DNA of 64,000 nucleotides from Candidatus Gastranaerophilales bacterium (lineage in GTDB: Bacteria > Cyanobacteriota > Vampirovibrionia > Gastranaerophilales > Gastranaerophilaceae): contig CAJOKJ010000020.1 in the NCBI GenBank assembly GCA_905235155.1, positions 1-64,000 on the forward strand. The letters run 5' to 3'. Below, one piece after another: positions 56,069-64,000 of this stretch. The translations under genes and the position numbers were made by a program. Below the pieces are notes generated by a model. That model did not search any database, was not told where the DNA came from, and worked only from the letters and a program-made list of their open reading frames with translations. Within the stretch, counting starts at the first letter, position 1; every line of letters begins with the position of its first letter.

Positions 56069-58543
56069 TTATTTTGCCATTAATGCCAATTTTGATCCGG
56101 TTTCAACTTTCGGTGCAGATTGATAAGGGTTTGATACAAAATTGTATTGAGGGTTATACATCACTCTTGATTTTTTAACTTCTTTTTGTTCAGGAACTGA
56201 GTATAAAATCAATGTGCTGTTGTACATATCAATTTTGTTATCATCTCTGTATCTGCCTGTTGCATGTTTGTAGTCTTCTTCGCTGTTGAAACGTTTAATG
56301 AAGTAGTTACCGCCATCTTCACAAACTTTGTAAACAGATTTATCTCTGTCATCAGCGTTTTTGAATGTTGTACCAACTTGTAAACCACCTCTTAAACCTA
56401 CTTTATCGTTATCAGTTGTATGTAATGAAATGCTGTCTAATTTAACATGAGTTGGAACATATTCGGCTTCTTTATCCAAGTTTACGTTATTTGCATTGAA
56501 TAAAGTTATAGCCATTGCACCGTCAGCAGATTGTCTTAAAATTGCTGAAACAGGTTTACCTGATTGTGTATCGTGATGCAAATCCAATGTAAATGGCGCT
56601 CCGTCATTCAAAGACTTCAATTCAGGACGTTCTCTTAATGCCATTGTAGCATTCATTTCGTTATAGAAGTCTTTAATAAATTGTTTATTGTTATCATTTA
56701 ACCATTCCCAGTGTAATGAACCACGATTTTGTAAGTATACGTTTTTAGCTTTTTCTTCGTAACCTGTAATACCTAATTCATCACCTGCGTACATTGTAGG
56801 ATTACCCGGTAAGCTTACCAAGAAGCCCATCATTGCTTTAAATTTACTCATACCAGGTTTTAATATAGTTTCAAATGTAGCATTGAACAATTTAGATTTT
56901 TCATCGTTGTTAAGTTTCAAACCGTGTTTCTTTTCTGCTTGAGTCATAACGGCTTTAATTGTAACATCGAAAGGTTTTGTTCCGAATGCATCAGCAGAAA
57001 ATTCTTTTTCACCGAATTTACCTGAAGCTAAATCTGCAACTGATTTGCTTATTGCTGAGAATACTTCGTCTTTTCTTTGACCTTGAAATACTTTGCCCAA
57101 TGCTTTTCCGAAACCGCCCTTAATTGCATCGCCCATAGCAATTGCTTTGTTGCTTACTTTGTTAAAGTCAATGCTGTTGATATCACTATCAGTAACTTGG
57201 TCATACATTTTATCTTTCAAAACTGCTGCTGCAATTTTCTTGTGATTGTAGTTGTTTGCAAAATTAGTGTGGAATAATTCCATATCTAATGACAAGCAGT
57301 GTAACATACGAGGTTTATCGTGGTTACCTACAAATGTGTAAGAATAAAGAATTGAATCCAATGGTGCAGAATTTAAGTAGTTATCTCCACCAACCATTTT
57401 GTCAAATATTTTTCTTTCTCTGCCGTTTTGATCAACAGTCGCACCTGTTGTAATGTCTTTATTAAAGATGTTAGCAACATCAGTGAAGAAATATGAATAG
57501 TTAGCAATACTTGTCATACCTGCTTCTTGATGTAATTTCATAACAGCATCTTTTGCAGTTGAGAATTTACCTGAATTATCATGTAACGCAAATTCATCTG
57601 TAACTTCTGCTACCATATATGCGTTTTTATTTTCACCTATAACACCTTTAGAGAAGTTTCTCCAGAAATCAACAACGCTTGACCATTCGTCTTTAAAGTT
57701 AGCATTGCCGTTTCTTAAAGCATCCATATCAGCGATATCTTTTGCTGCGTCAATTCTCCAGTCAAGACCTGCATTGTTTCTGTCAACAATCATTTCAGCT
57801 AATGCAAAACTGTTTTCATTTAAACCTTCCAAACGTTTTGTTATTGCTTTTGTAATTTGGTCTTTATCTTGAGATGATATTCTTCTTACACCGTTTTTCA
57901 AATGTTTTACAAGTAAGTTTGCTTCATCTTCCGGAGAATCTGCTAAGATACCCATTGATGCTAACGTAGTTTCTTCTTTCATTTTGTTGTAATCATAAGA
58001 AACAGCACCTTCTTCATTAACTTTTACTTGTGCTTTTGGATCAACTGCTTTAACTAAAGCATATTTTGCGATATCTTGATTTACTAACGGTAATACATAT
58101 TTACCAAGTTTTGTAACTTTATTTCCTTCAAATAATTTTCCGCCTAAGTTTTTATTAACTTGTTGCATTACATCATTTGTGAATGTAAATAATTCGTTTG
58201 TAAATAATGAATCTGCTTTTGCGTATGTGTCTTTGTTTTCAGCAGTTACTTGAGGATTACCTGCTTTAAACATTTCGTAACGAGACATACCGATTTGATT
58301 TGCCTTTGTTGCACGATTTGTAACTAAAGATGAACCAAGAACTGCAACTGTATCATCAGCAAATTCAATTGAATCTAAAGGTAATGACATTATTGATTGA
58401 AGTGTTAATTCTTTATAATCACTTGTAACTTTAGAAGTTTTTGTTTCGTAATCACCATTTATAACATTTGCTACAATATTTTCGTTAATGTCGTTGTTTG
58501 ATGGAAGTTCACCTTTTTTAGTTAAATCAGCAATTTGTGCCAT
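56069..58543 (-). CDS. GH13-like alpha-glucan enzyme, C-terminal part (catalytic core)
   Basis: From its first Met this frame gives 824 residues, but it is open about 28 codons further upstream and continues the preceding gene after a frameshift. Alpha-amylase family motifs are present: region II GLDWRIDAAKDI (nucleophile Asp near 265), region III MVAEVTDEF (acid/base Glu near 313), region IV FVGNHDKPRM (Asp near 409), then YAGDELGITGYE and a C-terminal beta domain. The 40-residue spacing and large inserts are unusual. No signal peptide, so intracellular glycogen or maltodextrin is the likely substrate. No ribosome site precedes the first Met, which supports one broken gene. Confidence 0.75.
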   Translation of the reverse strand: MAQIADLTKKGELPSNNDINENIVANVINGDYETKTSKVTSDYKELTLQSIMSLPLDSIEFADDTVAVLGSSLVTNRATKANQIGMSRYEMFKAGNPQVTAENKDTYAKADSLFTNELFTFTNDVMQQVNKNLGGKLFEGNKVTKLGKYVLPLVNQDIAKYALVKAVDPKAQVKVNEEGAVSYDYNKMKEETTLASMGILADSPEDEANLLVKHLKNGVRRISSQDKDQITKAITKRLEGLNENSFALAEMIVDRNNAGLDWRIDAAKDIADMDALRNGNANFKDEWSSVVDFWRNFSKGVIGENKNAYMVAEVTDEFALHDNSGKFSTAKDAVMKLHQEAGMTSIANYSYFFTDVANIFNKDITTGATVDQNGRERKIFDKMVGGDNYLNSAPLDSILYSYTFVGNHDKPRMLHCLSLDMELFHTNFANNYNHKKIAAAVLKDKMYDQVTDSDINSIDFNKVSNKAIAMGDAIKGGFGKALGKVFQGQRKDEVFSAISKSVADLASGKFGEKEFSADAFGTKPFDVTIKAVMTQAEKKHGLKLNNDEKSKLFNATFETILKPGMSKFKAMMGFLVSLPGNPTMYAGDELGITGYEEKAKNVYLQNRGSLHWEWLNDNNKQFIKDFYNEMNATMALRERPELKSLNDGAPFTLDLHHDTQSGKPVSAILRQSADGAMAITLFNANNVNLDKEAEYVPTHVKLDSISLHTTDNDKVGLRGGLQVGTTFKNADDRDKSVYKVCEDGGNYFIKRFNSEEDYKHATGRYRDDNKIDMYNSTLILYSVPEQKEVKKSRVMYNPQYNFVSNPYQSAPKVETGSKLALMAK

Positions 58544-58604: not shown

Positions 58605-60137
58605 TCATTTGTTTCTTGTCCAGTATTTACCTGAATTTACAACATAATCTTGTGCTTCAAAGTTTTTAGCTTTAATTTTGTTTGTTTGGAATTCTTTTTC
58701 GTGCGGATCAAGATTTTCCAAACGTTTTGTATCAGCGTGAGAGAATACAAAGTTTAATTTTGCAATATCTGTATTAGCATCCCAAGTTTCAAAACCGTTT
58801 TCGTATTTATCTTCCAAAACATAAGATTCTGATTGAGTTAAGAATTTTGCTGCAAGAGGTTGATTTAACATAATTTTCTTATCAGCATTTTTGTTATAAG
58901 CGTTTAAGTTTTTAACGTTTTTGTTGTATGTTTCAGGGTTAATTTCAAATGAATATGGAACAACCGTATCGTTGTGATTGTTTATATCATAAGCATTACC
59001 TGTATCTAACTTATCGTAAGATTTGATTAAGTGTTTTGTATCTTTTTTATCTTCTTCAGAAACTAATCTGCTATCATAAATTTGAACGAATGTCGGTTTT
59101 TTAGCGTCATAATCAGGGTTCTTAGAAGATTTAATTTGACCGTCTTCACCTTGCTCATATTTGTATGGAGAGTTTACAATTTTGTGTTCAACATAATCTT
59201 TGTTCTTAGCAAAGATACCCATTGATAAAGGACCTGATTGTAAACCGCTTGCTCTGAACCAGTTATAGTATGGAGATTGTTCACCCCATTTTAACATATG
59301 TTTAAAGTGAACACCTTCCAAACCTTCGTTTACAAACGCACCGTCTGAAACAAAGTTCATACCGTTTTTAAATAATTTCTTTTGTAAAGATGCATAATTA
59401 TCAATATTACCTATTGAATTTGACATTTGCATACAGTTTTTATTCCAGTAACTGTGAGATGATAAACTGTCATCAGTAAAGATAGGAGTTGAAACTATTC
59501 TTGAATAACCGGCCTTTTTAAGTCTGTCAACGTTAGCTTCAATACCTGCTAAGTTACCGCCCATTTTATTTGAGAAAGTTTTTGTTGCATATTTAGATTT
59601 TTCTTCAACATTTTTGTTTAAAATTGGTTTTCCGTTATCATCATAAACCCAGCCAACCGCATAAGAATCAGGTAAAGCAAGTGTCATAGAACCGCCTTTA
59701 GCAACTTGAGTTCCGTTTTGCATTACAAGGTTAAATTTATCAAAGTTACCATTCTTTGAATAGTCAATTACAGAACCTGCATCAACTTGGTAGAATGATT
59801 TTGAATTGTCATGTTTGTCAACTAATTTGTAGCGATATGCAAATGGTGCTTTTGACTCTAATTCATCATAAGCATAACCCATATCAATTTTAACACCGCC
59901 ATTTGGAATTTTTACTGAATTTACGTTTAAATCAGTATTTTTAAGCATTTTATCGACATTATAATTATCATTTCTGTCTTTTTTAACGCTAAAAACTTCC
60001 AAATAACAGTCATACTTTTTGCTGTCGTAGGGGAAGTTAAATTCAAACTCTTGAGTACCATTTTCTGATTTTTTGTGGTTAAAACCTGTAAAATTAACTG
60101 CTTTTACGGGTTTAAATATGTTTAAATTAACTTTCAT
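58605..60137 (-). CDS. GH13-like alpha-glucan enzyme, N-terminal part
   Basis: Protein of 510 residues ending abnormally as SGKYWTRNK. It contains an N-terminal beta-sandwich (about 20-150, carbohydrate-binding or branching-enzyme-like) and the start of the catalytic barrel: GNLAGIEANVDRLKKAGYSRIV and FVSDGAFVNEGLEGVHF (region I position, usually D-x-x-x-N-H). The catalytic Asp and Glu lie only in the downstream frame. Joined across about 58627 the product is near 1360 residues. ATG 60137 is preferred (AAGGA, 6-nt spacer) over 60143, which abuts AAGGA. Confidence 0.72.
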   Translation of the reverse strand: MKVNLNIFKPVKAVNFTGFNHKKSENGTQEFEFNFPYDSKKYDCYLEVFSVKKDRNDNYNVDKMLKNTDLNVNSVKIPNGGVKIDMGYAYDELESKAPFAYRYKLVDKHDNSKSFYQVDAGSVIDYSKNGNFDKFNLVMQNGTQVAKGGSMTLALPDSYAVGWVYDDNGKPILNKNVEEKSKYATKTFSNKMGGNLAGIEANVDRLKKAGYSRIVSTPIFTDDSLSSHSYWNKNCMQMSNSIGNIDNYASLQKKLFKNGMNFVSDGAFVNEGLEGVHFKHMLKWGEQSPYYNWFRASGLQSGPLSMGIFAKNKDYVEHKIVNSPYKYEQGEDGQIKSSKNPDYDAKKPTFVQIYDSRLVSEEDKKDTKHLIKSYDKLDTGNAYDINNHNDTVVPYSFEINPETYNKNVKNLNAYNKNADKKIMLNQPLAAKFLTQSESYVLEDKYENGFETWDANTDIAKLNFVFSHADTKRLENLDPHEKEFQTNKIKAKNFEAQDYVVNSGKYWTRNK

Positions 60138-60347
60138 TCCCATTCCTTATACACACACTTTTATATTATAAAGAAGGTCTGTAAATATTTTTTTTTGCAT
60201 GCTTTTACCCTATTTGTTACAAAAAATTTACAAAAGAATTTAATAAAAAAATACCTATAAAAATTATACAAAAAACACGACAATCAGACAGCAGATTATG
60301 TGAAACCAACAGAAACTTGCAACAACAGTCAACCGTTCACCATTTTG

Positions 60348-60532
60348 TTATTACGAGGAACGAAGTGATGAAGTAATCAGTAAAATTGTCATTGCAAGGA
60401 GCGTAACAACGAAGTAATCCGGTAATCTTGTCATTGCGAGGAGTGTAACGACGAAGCAATCCAATAAGTAAATTGGTTTGCCAGTATTTCAACTGGATTG
60501 CCACGAAAATCAAGGATTTTCTCGCAATGACA
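60348..60532. repeat. Dispersed palindromic repeat, copy F (three left arms, one right arm)
   Basis: Successive left-arm units start near 60348 (TTATTACGAGGAACGAAG), 60389 (TTGTCATTGCAAGGAGCG) and 60431 (TTGTCATTGCGAGGAGTG), followed by one right arm ending TCTCGCAATGACAG. The 450-bp gap 60138-60589 holds this cluster and no gene. Confidence 0.8.
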
Positions 60533-60589
60533 GACCACTATTCACAAGTAATTAGTCTTCTTTTCTGAACTTACGACTTTCAAGTGCTT

Positions 60590-61936
60590 TTAATGCCTTT
60601 TGAACATTAGCAGTTGACCGTATACGCTTATTGTACCGCCTGCGTCAACACGGAAGTCAAATTGATCAACATTTCCGGTAGTTTTCGAGTTTGGTCCTTT
60701 ATTACCGTTTATGTCAACTGTTATAATAGCGTCTTTAGAACTGGTTGCAAATCTATCAACAACACTCCAGGACATACCGTCTTTTGTTACAAATGAACAA
60801 GATGTACCATTACAAGAGCTTGACTTTGTATCAAATAAACTTGCAAAACTGTATGCGAATTTGTTTGTCGTTTTCATGTCGCTAGGGTGATTTGCAGGTA
60901 ATGTCGTATTAGTAAATACGTTACCTCTAGAACCTGCTTCAAAATTAGGTATTATATAATCGGTTGTCCCGTTTTTGTTGTCCCCGTTAGTAGTTCCCGT
61001 ACCTATATTTACGGCATTATCTGTCGGTATATCAGGATTGAACACTTGACAAGAAGACGGGTCAATAGTGCAAGGATCATCGTTTCCGTTGGAACCTGCA
61101 CTGCAAGCAGGATTGCTTGGATTTGCCGAACAGTCAAATGTGCTGCCGCTTGATGATGAACTGCTTGAACTGCTTGAACTAGATATTGAGCGACACCTTG
61201 TCGGACAGCCATCAGATCCGACAAGATATCCATTCGGACAGTCAAGGTTAAGGTCAGGACATTTTTTACATTCACAAGAACCTCCTTCTTTAAATACGTA
61301 GCCGTCAGGACATTTTTCACACTTTATACAATCACAAGTTTTACCTGGATTTTTATATCCTCCATAGCCTAAGCCGTTGCAATCAGTAGTTTTACATTTA
61401 TTACATTCACACCTATCATCTTGAGAAGACCCTTCTTCACAAGGTTTACAAACACATTTACACGTAGTAGAATTTACTTCAATTGTATTTTTGGGGTAGC
61501 AATATCTTCTATTCGAAGCCTTATTACTCATACACATTTCTGAACAATTACAATTAGCACCAATATAGTTTAAACCATTCATCTCAGCACAACAGCCAAC
61601 ACATTTTATGGTATAATTAGTAAAAAAACTATCCAAATCATATTGACAAGAATATTCTGCCACTGCCAGTTGCCTATTTATTAATGCGGTGAGATATTTG
61701 TTTAGTTTATTTGTTTTATATGCTGTTTTTTGTACAGGATATAAATCATCGTCATTTGCCAGTGTTGCTACGGCTTTGGCTGTTTCGGAATAGGCTTTTC
61801 GAATCATTGAGTAGTCTTTGTCCGGTCGCATGTTACGCAAACTGACAATTGTTATTATTGCAATAATCCCAATTACTCCGACCATAATTAGTGTTTCAAC
61901 TAAAGTAAATGCTTTTTCAGACTTAAATTTTTTCAT
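60590..61936 (-). CDS. Modular cysteine-rich type IV pseudopilin
   Basis: Protein of 448 residues. The leader MKKFKSEKA is followed by FTLVETLIMVGVIGIIAIIT, a class III prepilin signal with Glu5. After an N-terminal helix (to about 95) comes a block with 26 Cys in about 155 residues, in C-x-C and C-x2-C spacings (CKCVCKPC, CECNKC, CDCIKCEKC, CECKKC) resembling EGF- or laminin-like modules. A poly-Ser linker (12 or more Ser) and a C-terminal pilin-like domain (VDINGNKGPNSKTTGNVDQF, RVDAGGTISVYG) follow. ATG 61936 has GAAGGAG 7-8 nt upstream; the open frame runs 17 codons further. The tail probably belongs in another frame (SRKFRKED, stop at 60552). The gene starts 15 nt from a recombination-type site. 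Confidence 0.8.
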   Translation of the reverse strand: MKKFKSEKAFTLVETLIMVGVIGIIAIITIVSLRNMRPDKDYSMIRKAYSETAKAVATLANDDDLYPVQKTAYKTNKLNKYLTALINRQLAVAEYSCQYDLDSFFTNYTIKCVGCCAEMNGLNYIGANCNCSEMCMSNKASNRRYCYPKNTIEVNSTTCKCVCKPCEEGSSQDDRCECNKCKTTDCNGLGYGGYKNPGKTCDCIKCEKCPDGYVFKEGGSCECKKCPDLNLDCPNGYLVGSDGCPTRCRSISSSSSSSSSSSSGSTFDCSANPSNPACSAGSNGNDDPCTIDPSSCQVFNPDIPTDNAVNIGTGTTNGDNKNGTTDYIIPNFEAGSRGNVFTNTTLPANHPSDMKTTNKFAYSFASLFDTKSSSCNGTSCSFVTKDGMSWSVVDRFATSSKDAIITVDINGNKGPNSKTTGNVDQFDFRVDAGGTISVYGQLLMFKRH

Positions 61937-61951
61937 ATTAACTTCTCCTTC

Positions 61952-61981
61952 AATGCAACATTTTTTATAAAATGTTGTATT
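61952..61981. repeat. Left crossover-type site, 30 bp
   Basis: 11-bp arms AATGCAACATT and AATGTTGTATT around the spacer TTTTATAA. It is the inverted copy of the site at 62565-62594 with one mismatch (G for A at position 4). Its left edge touches the Shine-Dalgarno sequence of the pseudopilin gene. Confidence 0.85.
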
Positions 61982-62005
61982 GAACAAAGTACAGAAAGGA
62001 TTAAT

Positions 62006-62548
62006 ATGACAGCAGTTGAACCGATTAGAAACTTACAAAAAATTAAAAAAGTAGAACAATTTTTAGCCAAGCAAAGCTATAGAAATTTATTGCTTTTTAC
62101 GTTTGGTATAAATTCCGGTTTAAGAATATCTGATATTTTAAAGCTTGATGTGAAAGATGTAAAAAACAAGGCTTATATTGAGATAAAAGAACAAAAAACG
62201 AATAAATTTAAGAAGTTTCCTCTAAATTCAAAACTTAAAAATATGATTGAAATTTACACAAAGAATAAACCTGTTAATAGTCCGCTATTCAAAACGATAT
62301 TTAACAATAGAATGGATAGAGTAACCGCTTATAGGATAATAAGATATGCCTGTAAAAGAGCAGGCGTAAGGGAAAATATAGGCACACACAGTCTAAGAAA
62401 AACTTTTGGATATCATTTTTATAAAAAATATAATGATATTGCAATGTTACAAAAAATATTAAATCACTCCTCACCTGCTGTAACAATGCGATATATTGGA
62501 ATTGAACAAGAAGAAATTTATAAAAATTACAAAATGTTTATTTTATAA
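62006..62548 (+). CDS. Small tyrosine recombinase (FimB/FimE-sized, catalytic domain only)
   Basis: Protein of 180 residues. Catalytic residues of the tyrosine recombinase family are all present: Arg40 in SGLRISD, Lys64 in EQKTNKF, His128 and Arg131 in THSLRKTFGYH, His154 in LNHSS and Tyr163 in MRYIGI. The N-terminal core-binding domain of XerC/D is absent, as in FimB and FimE (about 200 residues). Similar short integrases are common in Firmicutes, so transfer is possible. Ribosome site AAAGGA lies 6 nt before the ATG. It is flanked on both sides by the inverted 30-bp sites. Confidence 0.88.
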   Translation: MTAVEPIRNLQKIKKVEQFLAKQSYRNLLLFTFGINSGLRISDILKLDVKDVKNKAYIEIKEQKTNKFKKFPLNSKLKNMIEIYTKNKPVNSPLFKTIFNNRMDRVTAYRIIRYACKRAGVRENIGTHSLRKTFGYHFYKKYNDIAMLQKILNHSSPAVTMRYIGIEQEEIYKNYKMFIL

Positions 62549-62563
62549 TTTTTGTGTTATAAT
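62535..62563 (+). promoter_or_regulatory. Outward promoter at the right end of the invertible segment
   Basis: Extended -10 TGTTATAAT (TATAAT 62558-62563), with a weak -35 TGTTTA at 62535-62540 (17-bp spacer). The 16-bp word TTTTTGTGTTATAATA is identical to the ftsZ promoter region. Initiation would fall inside the right-hand crossover site. Confidence 0.5.
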
Positions 62564-62564
62564 A

Positions 62565-62594
62565 AATACAACATTTTATAAAAAATGTTGTATT
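62565..62594. repeat. Right crossover-type site, 30 bp
   Basis: 11-bp arms AATACAACATT and AATGTTGTATT around the spacer TTATAAAA, the reverse complement of the left spacer. Perfectly symmetrical arms; inverted with respect to 61952-61981. Confidence 0.85.
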
Positions 62595-62790
62595 TATAAA
62601 AAGTTTGTATAAACGGCACTATATGCTGCTACACAGTATACATTTTTAAAGTCGTTTTTTGTACTACTTAAGCGGTTATTATTCATTTGATTTTTACATG
62701 TGTTTGTTTTAGTATTTTGTTGATTAAGGAGTGCCGGGTTGGAAATAAAAAACTTACCGGCGAGTACATATAAATTAAGGAGAATGCGAA
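62595..62790 (+). other. metK leader region with a GC-rich hairpin
   Basis: About 196 bp without a supported gene. It contains a GCCGG / CCGGC stem (62733-62737 with 62757-62761) and two TTAAGGAG words, at 62724-62731 and just before metK. It does not show the conserved core of the SAM-I or SAM-II riboswitches by eye. In the present orientation it is transcribed from the outward promoter of the invertible segment if that promoter is active. Confidence 0.35.
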
Positions 62791-64000
62791 ATGGCATCAA
62801 AAAACTTTTTATTTACGTCTGAATCCGTAACTGAAGGTCATCCTGACAAAGTTTGCGATCAAATTTCAGATGCAATTTTAGACGAATTTTTAACAAAAGA
62901 CAACAAATCACGTGTTGCCGCAGAAACAACCGTAACAACAGGTATGGCACTTGTTTGCGGTGAAATCACATCCGATTGTTATGTAGATATTCCTCAAGTT
63001 GTTAGAAATACAATTAAAAATATCGGTTACATTGGTGAAAACGGTGGAGGGTTCGACTACAAAACTTGTGCCGTTTTAACAAGTATTGATGAACAATCAA
63101 CAGATATCGCCGGCGGTGTAAACAAAGCACTTGAATCAAGAAATAATAATGCTGATACCTCAAACAGCGAAACAGAAGACATCGGTGCAGGCGATCAAGG
63201 TATTATGTTTGGTTATGCTTGTAACGAAACTCCTGAGTTAATGCCTTTACCTATCAGCCTTGCTCACAAATTATCTTACAGATTATCAAGAGTAAGAAAA
63301 AAAGGTATTGTTGATTACTTAAGACCTGACGGTAAATCACAAGTTACAGTTGAATATGTTGACGGAAAACCTGCAAGAATTCATACAATTCTTATTTCAA
63401 CTCAACACGATCCCGTTATCGGTACAGAAAGCGACAATCAAAAAGTTCAATCAATAATTGAAAAAGACCTAAAAGAACACGTTATTAACTACGTATTCAA
63501 AAATGAAACCATAAAACCTGATGAAAATACAATTATTTTAATCAATCCGTCAGGACGTTTCGTAATCGGCGGCCCTCAAGGTGATGCAGGATTAACGGGA
63601 AGAAAAATTATTGTAGATACATACGGCGGTTATTCTCGTCACGGTGGCGGTGCTTTTTCAGGTAAAGATCCAACGAAGGTTGACCGTTCTGCCGCTTATG
63701 CTGCAAGATATGTTGCTAAAAATATAGTAAAGGCAGGTTTGGCTGAAAAATGTGAAATAGAGTTGGCTTATGCTATTGGTGTTGCAGAACCTATTTCAGT
63801 TTTGGTTGATACTTTTGGTACAGGTACAATTTCTGATGAAAATTTATCTGAATTAGTAAGCAAAAATTTTGACTTAAGACCTGTTGGAATTATTAATAAA
63901 TTTGATTTAAGAAATTTACCTTCTAAAAATGGTGGTAAATTCTATCAAAAACTTGCTGCTTATGGTCACATGGGCAGAACAGATTTAGAAGTTCCTTGGG
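62791..64000 (+). CDS. metK: S-adenosylmethionine synthetase (3' end cut by the window edge)
   Basis: Makes SAM from methionine and ATP. 403 codons are visible, so only the last few residues are missing. [24 protein letters not shown] (cited in parts: EGHPDK), [35 protein letters not shown] (cited in parts: [13 protein letters not shown]), [23 protein letters not shown] (cited in parts: GGGAFSGKD) and VAYA-type [11 protein letters not shown] supply the ATP, methionine, Mg2+ and K+ sites. AAGGAG lies 8 nt before ATG 62791. Confidence 0.96.

Follow-up and report, generated by a model that had tools for sequence, protein, structure and literature searches.

A modular prepilin with a cysteine-rich insert beside a predicted self-inverting recombinase cassette in a Gastranaerophilales bacterium

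In the H-segment of Salmonella, an outward promoter serves a neighbouring surface-filament gene, and the recombinase, Hin, belongs to the serine family. In the E. coli fim switch, the genes for FimB and FimE are located outside the invertible element. For Moraxella bovis, Marrs et al. are said to have described in 1988 that DNA inversion controls pilin expression, the pilin genes themselves being inverted. According to passages of PMC5903667, the hin gene lies inside the segment that it inverts. Passages of PMC8179133 describe modular type IV pilins, namely PilB and PilC of Streptococcus sanguinis and GspK, in which a pilin core carries a bulky module and which are thought to be positioned at the filament tip; the module of PilB is grafted after the pilin module, and GspK possesses an inserted domain. 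A literature search that covered only a minor part of the subscription papers yielded no account of inversion-based phase variation in Gastranaerophilales.

Here, a prepilin gene and an adjacent recombinase cassette were analysed in the window, the whole stretch of 64,000 nucleotides from a Candidatus Gastranaerophilales bacterium, the features of which are listed in Table 1. Two short inverted sites around a predicted promoter and a linked site-specific recombinase are present at the locus, as in invertons, and the recombinase gene lies inside the site-bounded segment, as in Hin-type systems, with inversion predicted. The likeness to the H-segment extends to an outward promoter that would be directed toward a neighbouring surface-filament gene. 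However, the enzyme is a tyrosine recombinase and not a serine recombinase of the Hin type, the sites are palindromic and dif/loxP-like, the cassette measures ~0.64 kb and the target is a pilin; the enzyme would work like Hin without being a Hin-type member. With the fim switch and gut invertons the locus shares a small tyrosine recombinase, short inverted repeats, a predicted invertible promoter and a surface-structure target, and a fim-like layout with the recombinase outside is found in 24 of the 30 relatives with a detected site pair. In contrast to fim, the window recombinase gene is inside and would be inverted by its own product, which would allow one promoter to act on either neighbour. 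Whereas the pilin genes are inverted in Moraxella bovis, an upstream cassette of recombinase and promoter would invert here. Similar to PilB, PilC and GspK, the window protein appears to consist of a pilin core with a bulky extra module; unlike that of PilB, the module is internal, with the N-terminal helix before it and the C-terminal beta domain after it, is rich in Cys, contains no known domain and differs between sister species. We consider it likely that this gene encodes a modular pilin, probably exposed at the filament tip, whose phase variation is brought about by a self-inverting cassette. This reading builds on the directly observed anatomy of the cassette, its catalytic residues, its recurrence in relatives, the inversion seen in a sister element and the finding that a fixed-promoter operon lacks the pilin.

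Table 1. Coordinates of the features at the pilin and cassette locus (window positions).
Feature	Position	Strand	Remarks
Predicted modular prepilin gene, 448 aa	60590..61936	-	open reading frame, alignment with homologues
Conserved pilin-type C-terminal domain, about residues 341-440	60617..60916	-	alignment, model
Poly-Ser linker, residues 252-263	61148..61183	-	
Cys block, residues 95-248, 26 Cys	61193..61654	-	CxCxxC-type units at residues 176, 201, 221
Pilin ribosome-binding site AGGAG	61945..61949	-	adjoins left recombination site
Left recombination site, palindromic	61952..61981	.	inverted copy of right site
Tyrosine recombinase, 180 aa	62006..62548	+	R40 H128 R131 H154 Y163
Predicted outward extended -10 promoter TGTTATAAT	62555..62563	+	
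Right recombination site	62565..62594	.	

The recombinase gene is divergent from the pilin gene across a 69-bp spacer, and its product matches Phage_integrase (E 6.5e-27). Two exact 30-bp palindromes enclose it as inverted copies, with 24 bp between the left site and the recombinase start codon. Past the recombinase stop codon, and 1 bp inward of the right site, TGTTATAAT faces outward; we infer that it works as a promoter. A generic sigma-70 scan of 61800-62830 returned 8 promoter-like sites against 6.6 expected, TGTTATAAT not being listed. No promoter was identified for the recombinase itself, and an Rfam search of 60000-63000 at E<=1 gave no credible RNA match. According to the proposed mechanism, the recombinase would recombine the two inverted sites and thereby flip the segment carrying its own gene. 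In the assembled orientation TGTTATAAT faces metK, 196 bp away and equipped with its own conserved leader, and the pilin is left without a good promoter (OFF). Inversion on paper places it beside the left site, about 46 bp 5' of the pilin start codon, where it would switch the pilin ON. The same order of pilin, site, recombinase and site is found with the orthologue of the sister species (G001), where the recombinase is 63% identical and the cassette's TGGTATATT faces the 3' end of mnmA. For the pilin, ON/OFF is therefore the simplest outcome, since the other side is metK with its own leader in the window and the end of a gene in the sister species.

The pilin reading frame is uninterrupted from ATG to stop, with AGGAG 8 bp 5' of the ATG. 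The earlier note had described a prepilin with a class III N-terminus, a poly-Ser linker and a pilin-type C-terminal domain, and all three are present in this intact frame. The leader reads KSEKA/FTLVETL, which places Glu at +5 after cleavage, and F10, T11 and E14 are invariant in 8 aligned homologues. The Pfam N_methyl score is 12, below the cut-off of 21.2, so the assignment as a pilin rests on motif and homology. Alignment with seven homologues displayed conservation of residues 1-67 and of about 355-440, the middle varying in length, Cys count and sequence. The sister-species orthologue is 55% identical overall, 88% over residues 4-91 and 66% over 248-441; the rest of its middle is unmatched and contains its own, different Cys. 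Furthermore, a homologue of 203 aa (L063, from G005) is free of the insert and has matches in 80 of the 146 family genomes at E<=1e-10. Conserved ends, unrelated middles and insert-free relatives together suggest a modular protein, a pilin core with an extra, replaceable non-pilin module between its conserved ends. An out-of-frame origin of the Cys block, which the earlier note had raised as an objection to its own reading, is ruled out, because the N- and C-terminal parts align in a single frame to the seven homologues and the sister orthologue, with 16 Cys in the whole protein, is one open frame through its differing middle. The last residues of the window pilin, LLMFKRH (60590-60650), look shifted relative to this orthologue, since the DNA past the stop codon, read by eye in another frame, encodes a tail matching the orthologue's end; this may be a true shift or an assembly error.

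Two observations were made in the adjoining DNA. Short interspersed repeats gtcattgcgaggag..gaagcaatcc follow the pilin gene (60310-60540) and also a truncated pilin stub at another locus of the same genome (C35), and they may have helped the rearrangements described below. The adjacent reading frames at 56069-58543 and 58605-60143 correspond to the C-terminal and N-terminal parts of the alpha-amylase/cyclomaltodextrinase families and appear to be a split or broken gene.

The Cys count given by the earlier note is borne out: residues 97-248 hold 26 of the 32 Cys of the pilin. Among the window genome's pilin-like frames (scanned at those 30 of 35 N-terminal matches for which a locus was fetched, and in four larger stretches), the other 29 of 30 distinct frames contain 0-10 Cys, and the block is the densest Cys stretch among 1356 open frames of at least 150 aa in the fetched loci, so its richness is not due to chance. 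The kinship proposed for the block, to EGF, laminin or TNFR-type domains, was rejected: at E<=10, residues 95-265 matched no Pfam family and the block no PDB sequence, and in the search of 146 family genomes the only match was the window genome itself, with none in the 145 others. The sister species lies outside this draw, and the whole-pilin search aligned only the N- and C-terminal parts of its protein. Conservation of the Cys spacing, the lack of which the earlier note had counted against its own view, is likewise absent, given one matching genome of 146 and an unrelated middle in the sister orthologue. The structure prediction proposed for the region was run as AF2 of the full pilin with 8 sequences and gave a pLDDT below 50 over most of the block, whereas the insert-free homologue was modelled at pLDDT 79 with helices at 8-31 and 36-56 followed by a beta sheet. 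Structure searches with both models returned no significant match, with none from Foldseek at E<=0.001; a second structural look lists the pilins 3sok (Z 5.0), 1oqw (4.6), 9a1f (4.6) and 8tum (4.2), below unrelated rows and below the trust level. Silent Cys-block cassettes, as in antigenic variation by gene conversion, were rejected on the present data, as the block is single-copy in a genome ~95% complete. The block is an orphan insert. Its restriction to the window genome and the unrelated middle of the sister orthologue suggest a display module that changes fast rather than a conserved EGF-like domain.

The Cys block could form disulfides. The window genome encodes one Peptidase_A24, four T2SSE (all over cut-off) and one VKOR protein, and this set of prepilin peptidase, T2SSE-type ATPases and VKOR makes processing, assembly and disulfide formation of the pilin plausible. 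The protein would serve surface display and probably sits at the filament tip, where the module may bind or shield something; of the display module envisaged by the earlier note, the disulfide-capable block and the putative display role stand, and the EGF-like domain does not. It is possible, though we lean against it, that the module is no adhesin at all and acts as a stiff spacer, as a metal- or redox-active segment, or as a decoy for phages or the immune system. Searches recognised no lectin or adhesin domain in it, CxCxxC-type units also suit metal binding, and the turnover of its sequence between sister species suits escape from recognition. Against this, the VKOR gene makes extracellular disulfides plausible, and the known modular pilins display binding domains, as described in passages of PMC8179133.

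In three relatives (G003, G004 and G006) the pilin homologue heads a row of three pilin genes, which has an oppositely oriented SLT-type gene on one side and a gene of the phosphorylase family on the other, family names obtained from searches with the copies of the window genome and the sister species. The promoter upstream of this operon is TGGTATAAT in G004 and G006 and TGCTATAAT in G003. In the window genome and the sister species the arrangement and the promoter are kept, with the first pilin missing. In the sister species this pilin is found at mnmA behind a cassette. The corresponding locus of the window genome, C35, is syntenic at 93.6% over 4858 bp and carries one site, a ribosome-binding site and about 38 pilin codons, and the recombinase and inter-site segment are absent; the full pilin with its cassette is at metK. 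The gene upstream of metK is a different one in the three other genus members for which it was resolved (G001, G002 and G006). In G002, the ribosomal protein genes for L5 and S8 flank the homologous pilin (L101 5079-6083), a position that may reflect misassembly. The gene thus moves, in one lineage to behind a switch; the distribution points to movement from the fixed-promoter operon to the switch as the direction. The state of C35 suggests that deletion or insertion of the inter-site segment takes place as well.

Close homologues of the recombinase (E<=1e-25) occur in 102 of the 146 family genomes. The sample comprised 89 loci from the family and the genus, part of the places found, and yielded 96 recombinase genes whose identity is 45% or higher; Arg40, His128, His154 and Tyr163 are kept in all 96 and Arg131 in 95. 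With enough downstream sequence for evaluation at 85 genes, an inverted site pair with a score of at least 20 was detected at 30, flanking the gene in 6 cases and just downstream in 24. No pair at that score was obtained at the remaining 55, and none in 95 other segments of the same loci or in 85 shuffles. An outward extended -10 element stands right after the gene in 5 of the 6 flanking types compared with 6 of 88 others (p=4.8e-5), a pattern first noticed in the window element, which is itself among the six; on the opposite strand of the same stretch the frequency is 7 of 94. In the tree, five flanking types fall within one clade of seven rows (support 85/91), the other members being L156, with a pair score of 19, just under the threshold, and L055_4854, with no pair at that level. 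The sixth, L128, is outside the clade. The flanking-type cassettes L128 and L110 each lie within a divergent gene pair whose products, judged by eye, resemble enzymes of carbohydrates or sugar nucleotides. In the outer arms of L128, AGGAA is located 2-3 nt 5' of each start codon, and since this spacing is tight, the sharing of ribosome-binding sites is only suggestive. L055 5290-10390, in the genome's polysaccharide gene cluster, harbours two more recombinase genes (75% and 61% identity) close to palindromes. By sequence pattern, recombinases of the family also lie beside genes resembling restriction-modification systems at L170, L182, L184, L186 and L191.

Inversion itself was observed in a sister element. 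Loci L140 (G144) and L142 (G058) are colinear over 6375 bp (97.8%) and 745 bp (100%), and the 319 bp between their sites are inverted at 98.7%. Their recombinases are identical to each other and 62% identical to that of the window, and the element is of the downstream type. The near-identical 7.4-kb stretches also contain tandem recombinases and, by eye, a phage virion morphogenesis-like gene, and the inverted segment precedes a large, secreted-looking protein; the stretch is probably a mobile element with its own switch. In a more distant pair, L115 and L138, the segment is inverted at 72%. Locus pairs that match over 80 bp or more within the 450 bp 3' of the gene do so on opposite strands in 10 cases and on the same strand in 37, several of them sharing a locus. 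Moreover, a contig end is found no more than 100 bp downstream of the gene for 8 of the 96 recombinases and upstream for 1 of 96 (p=0.035), a modest excess that would be expected if both orientations disturb assembly. No flip was seen in any recombinase-inside cassette examined, the window locus being represented by one genome; the clear case of both orientations in nature is the pair L140 and L142. We infer that the window cassette flips. The earlier proposal of the pilin as a target of phase variation beside a tyrosine recombinase is supported by the recombinase, the inverted sites, the predicted outward promoter and the sister element caught in inverted form.

It is improbable that the cassette is a minimal mobile element which excises from and inserts at single palindromic sites, with the pilin a mere neighbour and inversion not its function. 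The single site at C35, with no recombinase, is like an empty or excised site, and cassettes are found at different loci in one genome. However, inverted recombination sites usually give inversion and not excision, the two sites here are inverted, the sister element was inverted in place, and the outward promoter of 5 of the 6 flanking-type cassettes is not needed for self-mobilisation. About as improbable is the view that the palindromes are operators or terminators of a divergent pair, the recombinase being fixed or a decayed remnant and the pilin not switched: a palindrome in the short spacer of divergent genes is common in ordinary regulation, no site pair could be detected at 55 of 85 related recombinases and the pilin-linked cassettes of the window genome and the sister species share one orientation, but the inverted copy behind the recombinase, the intact catalytic residues, the inverted segment between such sites in the same family and the 0 of 95 control segments with such a pair speak against it.

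Phase variation of the pilin by the self-inverting cassette is the preferred reading, with the pilin a predicted subunit of a type IV filament whose conserved core would carry an inserted, fast-changing, Cys-rich display module with a Ser linker, and with an upstream cassette in which the left and right sites enclose the tyrosine recombinase and, after it, the outward promoter. A wider reading is offered tentatively, with somewhat less than even confidence: minimal self-flipping selector cassettes of Gastranaerophilales may settle beside or between surface genes, each orientation expressing one neighbour and silencing the other. The first pilin of the three-pilin operon would have moved behind such a cassette and had its exposed module replaced by a fast-evolving Cys-rich sequence, giving a phase-variable, module-swapping filament tip. 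If so, these uncultured gut bacteria would vary their surface by means of the large family of small tyrosine recombinases described above, one branch of which is fully self-contained, and both orientations are predicted in metagenome reads. The cassette would also be a compact candidate for reversible promoters, and the locus a clear case in which a pilin subunit exchanges fixed for switchable expression as its display module is altered.

A further observation concerns the leader of metK (62715-62790), in which a conserved motif, GCCGGGTTGGAAWTAAAAAACTTACCGGC, is followed by AATTAAGGAG. The motif was matched in 50 of 97 family genomes and, at the genus level, in 25 of 41, and metK follows in all 17 loci checked. 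The window copy alone folds no better than shuffles (z -0.86), and the leader matched nothing in Rfam. Across 16 of these loci, pairing of its stem reaches 98.8%, and at 2 of the 5 pairs both partners vary; the ribosome-binding site would be masked by an invariant CUUA/UAAG pairing. Possibly, this is an undescribed SAM-responsive leader.
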